From: a virus | Virus record (IMG/VR): IMGVR_UViG_3300043640_000084 | Coordinates: 1 to 46,871 of that record | Direction: 5' to 3' (one strand) | Length of the DNA: 46,871 bases | In this document: positions 12,845 through 34,830 of the stretch, in pieces | Numbering within the stretch: position 1 is the stretch's first letter | Layout: each line of letters begins with the position of its first letter | Program-made: the position numbers and the translations under genes | The notes under the pieces: model-generated | Seen by the model: the letters and a program-made list of their open reading frames with translations, nothing else | The model's database searches: none | Told to the model about the DNA's origin: nothing

Positions 12845-13177
12845 ATGGCAGTCGTATTTACACCCACCCGCACCTTCAGCACGGCAGATCAGGCGACGTT
12901 CATTGAGTTCTGCACGGCGACTGTTACCGGAACTTACACCACAGCGGGTTTCGTATGGAATCCGTTCACGATCTTCGGCGGTAAGGGTTCCAGCCCTCTC
13001 CCGTCGTCCAACGTTCTTTCGGTAGATTTCTACTCTCCCCTTGGATTCACTTACCGAACCTCGGTTGTAGGCAACGTTGCTACCACAGTTGTGTTCAACG
13101 GTACTACGCAACTCGCTAATGCCGCTGCAATGCCTGATGCAACCATCAGTTTCACCATTATCAAAAGGAAAATCTAG
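12845..13177 (+). CDS. Small beta-rich virion-type protein
   Basis: This encodes 110 aa. It follows GGAGGCAACAAAT. It is rich in Thr, Val, Phe and Gly with no charged clusters until the KRKI end, as in decoration or tail-surface proteins. Its stop overlaps the end of the antisense endonuclease gene by 4 bases. The exact role is unknown. Confidence 0.7.
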   Translation: MAVVFTPTRTFSTADQATFIEFCTATVTGTYTTAGFVWNPFTIFGGKGSSPLPSSNVLSVDFYSPLGFTYRTSVVGNVATTVVFNGTTQLANAAAMPDATISFTIIKRKI

Positions 13178-13737
13178 GCCACTCGAGCGAAGTCTCCATG
13201 ATACTTTTTGGAGGCTTCGCTATAGGCTTCATGAGCAAGTTCGGCAGTAGGAAAATATCCAAGATGGATACGATTGGGGCCAACTGAAATCTTGGCTCTC
13301 CATCTACCTCCCACTCCATTCACTCCTCGCATACCGCTTCCACTATCGGCTCGAACCCTTCTATTTCTAGCTTGCTGTTGGCTTGTGGCCGCTCGCAGGT
13401 TAGCTCTCCTATTGTCTAGGCCATTACCCGGAGTCTTATGATCAACACTTTCGACATCTCGAAGGATTTGCCGGTGCATGCCTCGGCTCATCTTCTTGCC
13501 CTCGACATTCCAATGTCGAACTGCATAAAAGATGTCTCTGCGTTTTTCTCGCCATGCGCACCAGTTCCATTGGGAAAGATGTCCAGCATCGTCCCAATCA
13601 ACGCAAGCGAATTTTCCCTTGGTCAAGGGGATGTATGCAATGCTCGGCCCTATTGGATAAACAGGCTTGCGTTTAGTGTCTGCAGAATACTGATTCTTGC
13701 CAAGCGTTCCCTTGGCGATATACTTTCCTTGGGGCAT
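13174..13737 (-). CDS. HNH homing endonuclease with AP2 domain
   Basis: This encodes 187 aa on the minus strand, opposite to all structural neighbours. An HNH domain at about residues 83-125 shows H88, the D99-H100 pair and GLDNRRANLR with the conserved Asn; the C-terminal residues 134-185 (GMRGV...WRAKI...LGYF...A..AY) form an AP2 DNA-binding domain. This HNH-AP2 order is the well-known free-standing homing endonuclease type. It is inserted between two structural genes, so it is a selfish gene with its own start (SD GAAGGAGAG upstream). It is not within an intron in any frame I can see. Confidence 0.92.
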   Translation of the reverse strand: MPQGKYIAKGTLGKNQYSADTKRKPVYPIGPSIAYIPLTKGKFACVDWDDAGHLSQWNWCAWREKRRDIFYAVRHWNVEGKKMSRGMHRQILRDVESVDHKTPGNGLDNRRANLRAATSQQQARNRRVRADSGSGMRGVNGVGGRWRAKISVGPNRIHLGYFPTAELAHEAYSEASKKYHGDFARVA

Positions 13738-32618: not shown

Positions 32619-32794
32619 GGGGCCACATGGGGGCCAAACGTTGGAAATGTGTGTATTTTCCTGTCCTTTCGTGTCCAGTATGTCCATCAAAACACTGGTA
32701 AATCCGCAGTCTTAGCGGGTTCGAGTCCCTCACCGCCCACTATAACCCTTTTAGAATCAATGATAGATTCGACGCTTGGGCCACCCGTGGGCCA
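32619..32794. other. Candidate attP: tRNA 3' end flanked by paired arm repeats
   Basis: The core near 32697-32740 reads as the 3' part of a tRNA: GTAAATCCGC, then a T-arm GGGTTCGAGTCCC and acceptor strand ACCGCCCA. A GTA anticodon followed by AAATCCGC fits tRNA-Tyr best; Leu is possible. On the left, GGGGCCA occurs at 32619 and 32630; on the right, TGGGCCA occurs at 32777 and 32788, each pair 11 bp apart. Core plus paired arm sites next to a tyrosine integrase is the attP layout. Confidence 0.7.
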
Positions 32795-32795
32795 T

Positions 32796-33389
32796 CTAGA
32801 TGACTTTATTGCTTTTCCTCTTACTAGAGAGTTCCAATCCTTCAGCGGAATTCACCTTTTCTCTAAGCTGGTCCGCCGCCCGGGACGCAGATTCTTTATC
32901 TGGGAATATGCCAAGCCGAAACCTAGGCCGAGAATTATCTGACATCCTGAATCGTACGTACCAAAAAGCCTTACGCTTTTCAACCGTTCCGAATTGGTAG
33001 CGATCACCTATCGCCCTAAATATAGGATCTGGTGGTTCTGCCCACGGCTTGCTCGTTGGTAAGTGGCGATGTACATTGGATCCGCGTCGAACGTTCTCAC
33101 TATGAGACACTGCTTCCAAGTGATCAGGATTTACGCAGTTTGTCACTCTACATAGGTGGTCGATGACAAGCCCTACTGCTATCGGACCATGCTTGGCCCC
33201 ATAAATAAGACGGTGGGCCGACATGCATTTACCTGCCACAACGATCCGGCTGTAGCCGTGAGCGTCAACATGACCAGTCCAAATCCAGCATGATCCCTTG
33301 CGGCTAACGTACTGCCAGAATCTCTGTAATCCGACTGCGGCCAAGCCATTTCTTAATGAATTTTCTTCTTGGGTATACTTAAACAGCAT
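32796..33389 (-). CDS. HNH endonuclease fused to integrase-type arm-binding domain
   Basis: This encodes 197 aa. Residues 22-103 are a classic HNH_3 nuclease (CWIWTG, H59 in SAHR, D77-H78 in IDHLC, CVNPDHLE, ENVRRG). Residues 130-187 match the first 70 residues of the neighbouring integrase: RYQxGxxEKRK, W-x2-RFR, SRPRxRxG, D, RAA-x2-LR and G-x-E occur in the same order in both. The gene lies between the right att arm and the integrase, ending 1 base after the arm. It probably cuts DNA at or near att-type sequences; that is an inference. Confidence 0.88.
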   Translation of the reverse strand: MLFKYTQEENSLRNGLAAVGLQRFWQYVSRKGSCWIWTGHVDAHGYSRIVVAGKCMSAHRLIYGAKHGPIAVGLVIDHLCRVTNCVNPDHLEAVSHSENVRRGSNVHRHLPTSKPWAEPPDPIFRAIGDRYQFGTVEKRKAFWYVRFRMSDNSRPRFRLGIFPDKESASRAADQLREKVNSAEGLELSSKRKSNKVI

Positions 33390-33476
33390 CGGTGGCTCCT
33401 CCAGTGGGCCTTTACATCGTCCGAACCTTGGCGGGTTCGAGGTGACGATGCTTATATTTTACCACTACTTAGCGAA

Positions 33477-34604
33477 CTATTCCTCCCTCAAAATAAATTC
33501 CATAGCCTTATCGCTGGCCTCTCGCATGCGCTCAAAATCAGCTTCTCCGTAGACGTTCATCGTCGTGTGGGTATCACTGTGTCGGAGCATGTCTCGCATC
33601 ATTTCTGGATCCGCTCCCGATGCCTTCAGGATGTTCTTGAAGCTATGCCGGAACGTATGCCAACCTAGATTGAAGTCCAGGCCGACCGCCTTCCCTGCCC
33701 CTCTGAGCACGTTGTATTGAATGTGCTGCGAGTTGAAAGGCATATCGCCTCCCTGAAATGGACTAGCAAACACCCAACTATCCTGTTTCTTGAATTCTGT
33801 TATGCCATATAACGCGAGGAAGGCATCTGCCGCGAACTTGGGCAGAGGTATTGAAGCCTCTGAGCCATGGGTCTTAGTCTCTCCCACCCTGCCGTCAACA
33901 ATAGCCCGTTGAATCATCAGCTTTCCACCCAGAAAATCGAAGTCCATCCACTGAAGCGCGAACAGCTCGCTTGCACGTAGCCCGAGACAGCCGGCGCCTA
34001 TCAGCATGGCGCGGAACCTAATGTCGCTTTGGTTGCGGAGTATCTTAAAGAACTGCTTTGGGCTTATCGTGCGTGGCTTGCGAGTTCTCTTTGTAGCTCC
34101 AGAAATCGAGAAGAGTGACATGGGATTAGCAGGCCAACTAGTCCACTTCCAGAGCATCGCAAACTTACAGAGCACTCGCATCTGCGCATGGATGTGGCCG
34201 CGGCTACGTGTGCTGCAGTCAAGGCCGTTGATCCACTCCCTAACCGCTAGCGCGTCAAGTTCATCGAGTGCAGCGTTGCCCCACTTCGGCGCGATGTGAT
34301 TGCGGTGGAGATTTCTATACCCGCGGCTGGTGGAATACCTTTCAGGCATTTCCTCCCGCTCGTAGCGCGTAATGACCTCTGCCAAAGTACGTCTTACCTC
34401 AACACCCTTATGTGCGTTGAAGGTCTTTCGTAGATCCATTGCGGCCCGTTGTGCTGCGGCCTTCGTGGGTAGATCCGACACAAGTCCAATTCTTACCCGC
34501 GGGCGGCTGGAAGATCCCGCTTGCCGGAACCTCAAGAACCAACACACCCCCTCTTTTGTCTTGCGCTTCTCCAATGAACCAGACTGGTACCTACTTGTGT
34601 CCAT
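33477..34604 (-). CDS. int: Tyrosine-recombinase integrase
   Basis: This encodes 375 aa. N-terminal residues 4-72 form an arm-site binding domain, then a SAM-like core-binding domain (about 75-165) and the catalytic domain with R210, H316, R319, H342 and the nucleophile Y352 (VYGEADF). All five visible key residues are intact. AGGAGG precedes ATG 34604. It integrates the phage at attP, proposed 740 bp downstream of its stop with the HNH gene between, so the usual int-attP contact is interrupted. Confidence 0.95.
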   Translation of the reverse strand: MDTSRYQSGSLEKRKTKEGVCWFLRFRQAGSSSRPRVRIGLVSDLPTKAAAQRAAMDLRKTFNAHKGVEVRRTLAEVITRYEREEMPERYSTSRGYRNLHRNHIAPKWGNAALDELDALAVREWINGLDCSTRSRGHIHAQMRVLCKFAMLWKWTSWPANPMSLFSISGATKRTRKPRTISPKQFFKILRNQSDIRFRAMLIGAGCLGLRASELFALQWMDFDFLGGKLMIQRAIVDGRVGETKTHGSEASIPLPKFAADAFLALYGITEFKKQDSWVFASPFQGGDMPFNSQHIQYNVLRGAGKAVGLDFNLGWHTFRHSFKNILKASGADPEMMRDMLRHSDTHTTMNVYGEADFERMREASDKAMEFILREE

Positions 34605-34632: not shown

Positions 34633-34830
34633 CTAACTCTGCGACAGAAACTTGTCTACATCTGTTCTTAGTGTGCGCCACTTGTTGCCGATTCTGATTG
34701 CTCGTATCGTGCCGTCCTTGAAGCGCCTGTTTACTGTCTTTACTGACACTTGTAGCATCGCAGCGACATCTTTCTCAGATAGAACTACCCCTACAAGTTC
34801 CTTCGGCGTTTCATAAACTACCTTGGCCAT
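34633..34830 (-). CDS. xis: Excisionase-like HTH protein
   Basis: This encodes 65 aa. A MerR/HTH_17-type fold is seen (LSEKDVAAMLQVSVKTVNRR, then IRAIRIGNKWRTLRTDVDKFL), the layout of excisionase-family DNA-binding proteins. It starts at ATG 34828-34830 behind AGGGGAG and ends 28 bases before the integrase. Likely role: bend attP/attL/attR DNA and favour excision. It is divergent to the early operon and shares its control region. Confidence 0.8.
   Translation of the reverse strand: MAKVVYETPKELVGVVLSEKDVAAMLQVSVKTVNRRFKDGTIRAIRIGNKWRTLRTDVDKFLSQS

Follow-up and report, generated by a model that had tools for sequence, protein, structure and literature searches.

An HNH endonuclease gene with an integrase-type C-terminal domain between int and attP in a viral genome

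HNH-AP2 homing endonucleases from phages, cyanobacteria and protists are among the closest described systems to the protein analysed here, which shares with them an N-terminal HNH_3 domain, a linker modelled with low confidence and a tail of three strands plus a helix. Unlike in that group, however, the tail of this protein is of integrase type by sequence, and its gene is lodged between an integrase gene (int) and attP. AP2 domains and the arm-binding domains of integrases have a common fold. By sequence, the tail is the same domain as that of the RYQ-type tyrosine integrases of Acidobacteriota (cf. the arm domain of the HAI7 integrase, 3ju0), from which the HNH protein differs in lacking a core-binding or catalytic integrase domain and in having two shorter loops. 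It can thus be classed, as far as its sequence allows, as a variant type of HNH homing endonuclease, in which the HNH part conforms to the group, an AP2 tail is missing and an integrase-type tail is present.

That a homing nuclease can be given a new target by taking over a reader domain has a precedent in Odn of phage ICP1, for which coliphage counterparts have been proposed; Odn is a homing-type nuclease whose RepA_N domain resembles the one of the targeted satellite, and it cuts the origin of that satellite (PMC10448857). The two proteins are alike in that a homing-type nuclease is joined to a DNA-binding domain from the protein of another mobile element (PMC10448857). They differ in that Odn combines T5orf172 with RepA_N and acts at replication origins, whereas here an HNH nuclease is combined with an integrase arm-type reader and attachment sites would presumably be the target. 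Set against the design of Odn, both the fusion of nuclease and reader and the integrase origin of the reader are supported by our comparisons, and integrase arm sites may be what it targets.

The region between int and attP

We analysed the 46,871 bases of an IMG/VR virus record (hereafter, the window). The host of this virus is very probably an acidobacterium, because relatives of its large terminase were found in four genome contigs, all of them from Acidobacteriota (two Granulicella, one 'Acidobacteria bacterium' and one Terriglobia). The features of the integrase region are the following:

34633..34830, minus strand: 65-aa helix-turn-helix protein upstream of int (HTH_17, 44.6 bits against a cutoff of 27)
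33477..34604, minus strand: tyrosine integrase, 375 aa (Phage_integrase, 64.1 bits; phrog_1, 8e-50)
34395..34592, minus strand: N-terminal domain of the integrase, residues 5-70, common to the HNH protein (BLASTP against the HNH protein)
33390..33476, minus strand: gap between int and the HNH gene, with a 14-bp hairpin, a near-copy of part of attP, a GGCCCAC half-site (33404-33410) and the GGAGG of the HNH gene (from the sequence)
32796..33389, minus strand: HNH endonuclease gene with an integrase-type C-terminal domain, 197 aa (open reading frame)
33078..33350, minus strand: HNH nuclease domain, residues 14-104 (modelled with a pLDDT of about 85-92 at residues 21-100)
33006..33077, minus strand: linker, residues 105-128 (pLDDT below 50 in residues 105-131)
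32829..33005, minus strand: integrase-type arm-binding domain of the HNH protein, residues 129-187 (sequence comparisons, tree and model)
32778..32794, plus strand: proximal attP arm site, GGGCCA-N5-GGGCCA, 17 bp (pattern search, 11-bp period)
32717..32739, plus strand: attP core, 23 bp, equal to the 3' end of tRNA-Val (identity to tRNA-Val genes)
32620..32636, plus strand: distal attP arm site, GGGCCA-N5-GGGCCA, 17 bp (pattern search, 11-bp period)

Judged by its sequence, attP is real and well formed. It spans positions 32619-32794, with the core flanked by two arm sites that are each composed of two half-sites 11 bp apart; without mismatches, GGGCCA-N5-GGGCCA occurs exactly twice in the 46.9 kb, and the two copies lie 158 bp apart. 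The core is identical to the 3' ends of tRNA-Val genes in four of the 348 Granulicella-family genomes searched, and a search of genome contigs with an exact 28-mer of the tRNA-like core yielded 0 matches. The attP of a related viral contig (L171/L173) is built alike, with AATTGCCCCCCAATTGCCC and AATTGCCCCGCAATTGCCC flanking a 3' fragment of a tRNA at a distance of 159 bp from each other, and its first arm site begins one base past the int stop codon, just as the proximal arm site of the window does past the HNH stop codon.

Next to integrases, repeats with a period of 11 bp stood out with 40 position counts, while no other period between 8 and 30 exceeded 7, in a set of 13 regions (12 loci plus the int-HNH gap) that were chosen by hand and in some of which the repeats were already known beforehand. 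Tandem half-sites with this period were present in seven of the 12 integrase loci and absent in five, and are taken here as putative arm sites of the integrase family. For the three integrases with an R-P-R motif and readable arms, the half-sites are TGGCCC (window), TTGCCC (L171) and CTGCCC (L145), suggesting that the R-P-R domain might read an x-GCCC theme.

The HNH gene, with its own GGAGG ribosome-binding site, fills the junction between int and this well-formed attP, as the initial annotation had placed it, and the proximal arm site starts one base beyond its stop codon. The distance from the int stop codon to the core is 738 bp in the window. From 78 loci, we retained 37 distinct related integrases with an open frame of at least 300 aa and both motifs, the remaining loci being duplicates or failing the filter; in 28 of these 37, a tRNA that is complete within 350 nt starts 11-160 bp past the int stop codon. 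Up to 1500 nt downstream of these integrases, an HNH motif was found in 0 of the 37, indicating that this place is not a common site for HNH genes; an 11-bp tandem was found within 350 nt downstream of 11 of them, some perhaps by chance. The position of the HNH gene is what would be expected of a free-standing homing gene inserted beside its target; no close allele without the HNH gene was found for comparison, the nearest integrase (L172) ending at the edge of its record.

Within the hairpin of the int-HNH gap, CTTGGCGGGTTCGAG (33427-33441) equals attP positions 32711-32725 at 14 of 15 bases, a level that was reached by 0 of 300 shuffles, and six of its bases equal to attP fall outside the tRNA identity. 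Together with the GGCCCAC half-site, it could be either a remnant of an older attP or a coincidence. A possible second attP between int and the HNH gene was considered: the gap contains no tandem 11-bp arm site, but it does have this near-copy. At the other side of int, the 65-aa helix-turn-helix protein is, as a guess from its position, a possible excisionase.

The nuclease and its C-terminal domain

The N-terminal part of the HNH protein showed a clear match to HNH_3 (PF13392; 50.8 bits against a Pfam cutoff of 24.8) and to PHROG HNH families (best, 2e-32), and its modelled domain aligns with the homing endonucleases I-PpoI (Z 7.6) and I-HmuI (Z 7.4). The translation contains an intact motif, D-H-x-C ... 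C-x-N-P-D-H, in which we take H78, N87 and H90 to be the HNH motif residues; the protein thus has the HNH_3 domain and the intact H-N-H motif of HNH_3 homing endonucleases. Between structural genes of the same genome (13174-13737, minus strand) lies the gene of another HNH protein, whose tail is AP2-like and whose HNH_3 score, 16.1 bits, is below the cutoff.

In BLASTP, residues 130-187 of the HNH protein and residues 5-70 of the integrase have 29 identities and 43 positives in 66 columns (50.4 bits), the initial annotation having counted approximately 27 identities over some 60 positions; the associated E value, 4e-12, applies to one single pairwise comparison. The local score of this pair is 123, whereas 2000 shuffled tails averaged 24.0 (sd 4.5) and reached at most 54, which corresponds to a z of about 22. 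Chance similarity is ruled out by this test and by the E value. At the DNA level no similarity is left between the tail and int, the best local match covering 10 columns, so the tail is not a recent copy; a recent duplication of the 5' end of int into the HNH gene is likewise ruled out.

Because no Pfam hit on the tail passes its cutoff (AP2, 15.6 bits against 33.3; Arm-DNA-bind_3, 13.1 bits), the assignment of the tail to a family rests on direct comparison. Raw scores of the tail were 123 with the neighbouring integrase, 126 with the integrase of genome G345 and 93 with that of G297, compared with 40-71 for another 26 integrases. Three HNH-linked AP2 tails scored 31, 42 and 47; they thus fall in the lower range of the distant integrases, and the R-P-R subfamily is the outlier. 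A profile of 28 other Acidobacteriota integrases gave 65.1 bits for the N-terminal domain of the neighbouring integrase, 27.6 bits for the HNH tail and at most 7.7 for the AP2 tails, although this profile was gathered through an alignment containing the HNH tail and is not fully independent. In a tree of 36 rows, the HNH tail lies among 32 integrase domains and apart from the three AP2 tails (support 100/100), and within the former it groups with six integrases with the R-P-R motif, split from the other 26 at 80/98; the branching order inside this group is not resolved. The tail also follows the sequence pattern of the RYQ family, R-Y-Q-x-G ... W-x-x-R ... R-P-R-x-R-x-G ... R-A-A ... L-R, and does not conform to the AP2-type tail of the HNH-AP2 group, although the general fold is possibly the same. 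Together, these comparisons support the tail being a close relative of the N-terminal (arm-binding type) domains of integrases and not of AP2 tails. The proposal of the initial annotation that the tail belongs with these domains is therefore borne out by the score gap (123 versus 31-47) and the tree, and a better sequence match to AP2 than to the neighbouring integrase, which would have spoken against it, was not observed.

In the model of the whole protein, the tail has strands at residues 134-139, 142-147 and 156-160 and a helix at 165-180, with fair confidence. The model matched 3ju0, the solved arm-type domain of an integrase, only weakly (Z 3.9, rmsd 3.0, 52 residues, rank 35), and both AP2 and integrase arm domains appear among its weak fold matches. 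When modelled alone (mean pLDDT 70), the C-terminal domain gave no convincing fold match and 3ju0 was not among the best 50; Foldseek with the tail alone retrieved an AP2 domain as its best hit (E 0.27), and a search of the PDB by sequence returned no match.

The initial annotation went further, describing the tail as the integrase's own domain, which is slightly too strong. The neighbouring integrase is indeed the closest in eight pairwise comparisons (28/56 identical), but two others are nearly equal (26/55 and 26/56), the five other integrases of its subfamily ranging from 23 to 26 identities in 55-56 positions; besides, the tree leaves the order within the group unsettled and the HNH version is without two short loops. 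In particular, its strands 1 and 2 are not separated by the turn of 4-5 residues, and three residues are missing ahead of the helix, at which point the spacing is that of AP2 domains. We also looked for reading residues shared with the neighbour beyond the subfamily, and saw none: the strand residues of the tail agree equally with the neighbouring and the G345 integrases (18/29 each), and therefore do not point specifically to target sites in common with the neighbour. From this equal agreement and the two shorter loops, it does not follow that the tail and the neighbouring integrase have identical specificity.

Occurrence of the domain and of the fusion

The HNH protein had matches in nine of 396 genomes of the phylum and in 15 of 398 genomes of the Granulicella family. 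One match in both sets was the G345 integrase, which covers HNH residues 129-192, and in these 396 and 398 genomes no HNH match extended past HNH residue 128. The domain itself was found in 27 of the 396 genomes with a two-row profile, and in 264 of 392 Acidobacteriota genomes of the order with a ten-row profile. Among the matches listed, 18 open frames shorter than 300 aa contain the domain, which begins within the first 38 residues in 14 of them and at residues 66-114 in four, and 0 of the 18 have an HNH motif.

Likewise, scans of viral contigs built on the domain or on the integrase retrieved integrases only, with no HNH carrier, and those with P0002 alone and with alignments A1 and A2 retrieved no confirmed relative. 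Queries of the phages collection with the tail and with the integrase N-terminus gave one weak, unrelated-looking match each, and a literature search for an HNH nuclease with an integrase arm domain, judged at title level, found none described. The recurrence of HNH genes with this domain beside integrases of other phages, whose absence the initial annotation had named as grounds against its idea, therefore failed to appear in the 396 and 398 genomes, in the viral scans and next to the 37 related integrases, which counts in part against that idea. In the material covered here, this is thus the one HNH protein with the domain and not an example of a recurring system, and a transfer from integrase to HNH protein would be the simpler direction.

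Other associations of HNH genes with recombinases were seen. In L110 (252-1950), from Acidobacteriota, an HNH gene whose tail is not of integrase type is divergent beside a tyrosine-recombinase-like frame, and in Mycobacterium phage prophiBWHA-1 (L241, 2402-4777) an HNH gene lies near a serine integrase gene at the genome end. Also, loci L170 and L180 are parts of one viral contig of 39,344 bases, with an integrase split between its two ends, which is what a circular genome linearised within int should show.

Possible roles of the HNH protein

The reading that we favour, tentatively and at somewhat below an even chance, is that of a free-standing HNH homing endonuclease with a captured integrase arm-binding domain, aimed at int-attP junctions. 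The usual AP2-type tail would have been replaced by an arm-binding type domain from an integrase of the same subfamily as the neighbour, and the gene would have inserted exactly between the int stop codon and whichever attP arm site is closer to int. In phages or prophages that are related but without the gene, the protein would bind x-GCCC-type arm half-sites and cut or nick beside the int-attP junction, into which it would spread during repair. Tethered to the tail by a loose linker of ca. 25 residues, the nuclease would be expected to cut close to the arm half-site, a place that is occupied by the 3' end of int in relatives and by the 3' end of the HNH gene here. It is for this reason that we propose homing with self-protection by displacement: the phage's own copy would be spared because the insertion displaces the 3' end of int from its normal place next to the arm site. 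The window's own arm sites are intact, so this protection requires a cut outside them. Arm-site binding, cutting, homing and self-protection are thus activities that we infer for the protein, and against homing stands the single occurrence of the fusion, for which no relative was found.

The protein could, on the contrary, be an HNH homing endonuclease of the ordinary sort, with a tail that has no more than ancestry and fold in common with integrase domains, with a target elsewhere and with an incidental adjacency to attP. This would agree with the fold common to AP2 and integrase arm domains, both of which are among the weak fold matches, with the AP2-like spacing before the tail helix and with the second HNH protein at 13174-13737, which has an AP2-like tail. 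AP2-type tails are, moreover, known from phage HNH proteins (PMC10448857). We nevertheless consider this explanation rather unlikely, because the gap in scores and the tree put the tail inside an integrase subfamily, and because none of the 37 related integrases has an HNH motif at the junction.

A domesticated weapon, that is, a phage nuclease that cuts attP, attL or attR in rivals, whether phages or satellites, whose integrases share the arm-site class, would have the design of Odn, a homing-type nuclease with a DNA-binding domain from a protein of the target element (PMC10448857). Integrases of this kind occur in many Acidobacteriota genomes, and the HNH tail is nearly as close to others of them as to the neighbour, as would suit such a role; however, the gene is at a homing-like junction and not in a defence locus, and such a nuclease would endanger the arm sites of the phage itself, making this role improbable. 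Alternatively, the protein might occupy arm sites and tune integration or excision, cutting being of minor importance or none, for which its gene, co-oriented with int, with its own ribosome-binding site and ending at an arm site, would be well placed. An intact HNH motif and a well-modelled nuclease domain are, however, unexpected of a pure competitor, and we regard this role as very improbable.

Taken more broadly than in the homing reading, an attachment-site-directed nuclease that reads the arm sites of attP, attL or attR and cuts, either to home into int-attP junctions or to disable the integration and excision of competing phages and satellites with the same class of arm sites, is to us about as probable as not. 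If true, it would be the integration counterpart of the origin-directed nucleases. Should the tail indeed read arm sites, integrases and homing nucleases would exchange reading heads, and attachment sites could be, like replication origins, targets of nuclease warfare or homing.

The arm-binding domains of this integrase family seem to be subject to swapping or to fast divergence: the integrases of the window and of L172 are identical at 216 of 300 positions outside the N-terminal domain and at 31 of 64 inside it. The half-site sequence of the arm sites varies with the integrase as well (L173, 6245-6485; L176, 6119-6359; L145, 3976-3998; L181, 604-634), and arm specificity might hence be predictable from the N-terminal domain; the rule of two half-sites 11 bp apart may make the arm specificity of this large family of Acidobacteriota integrases readable from sequence.
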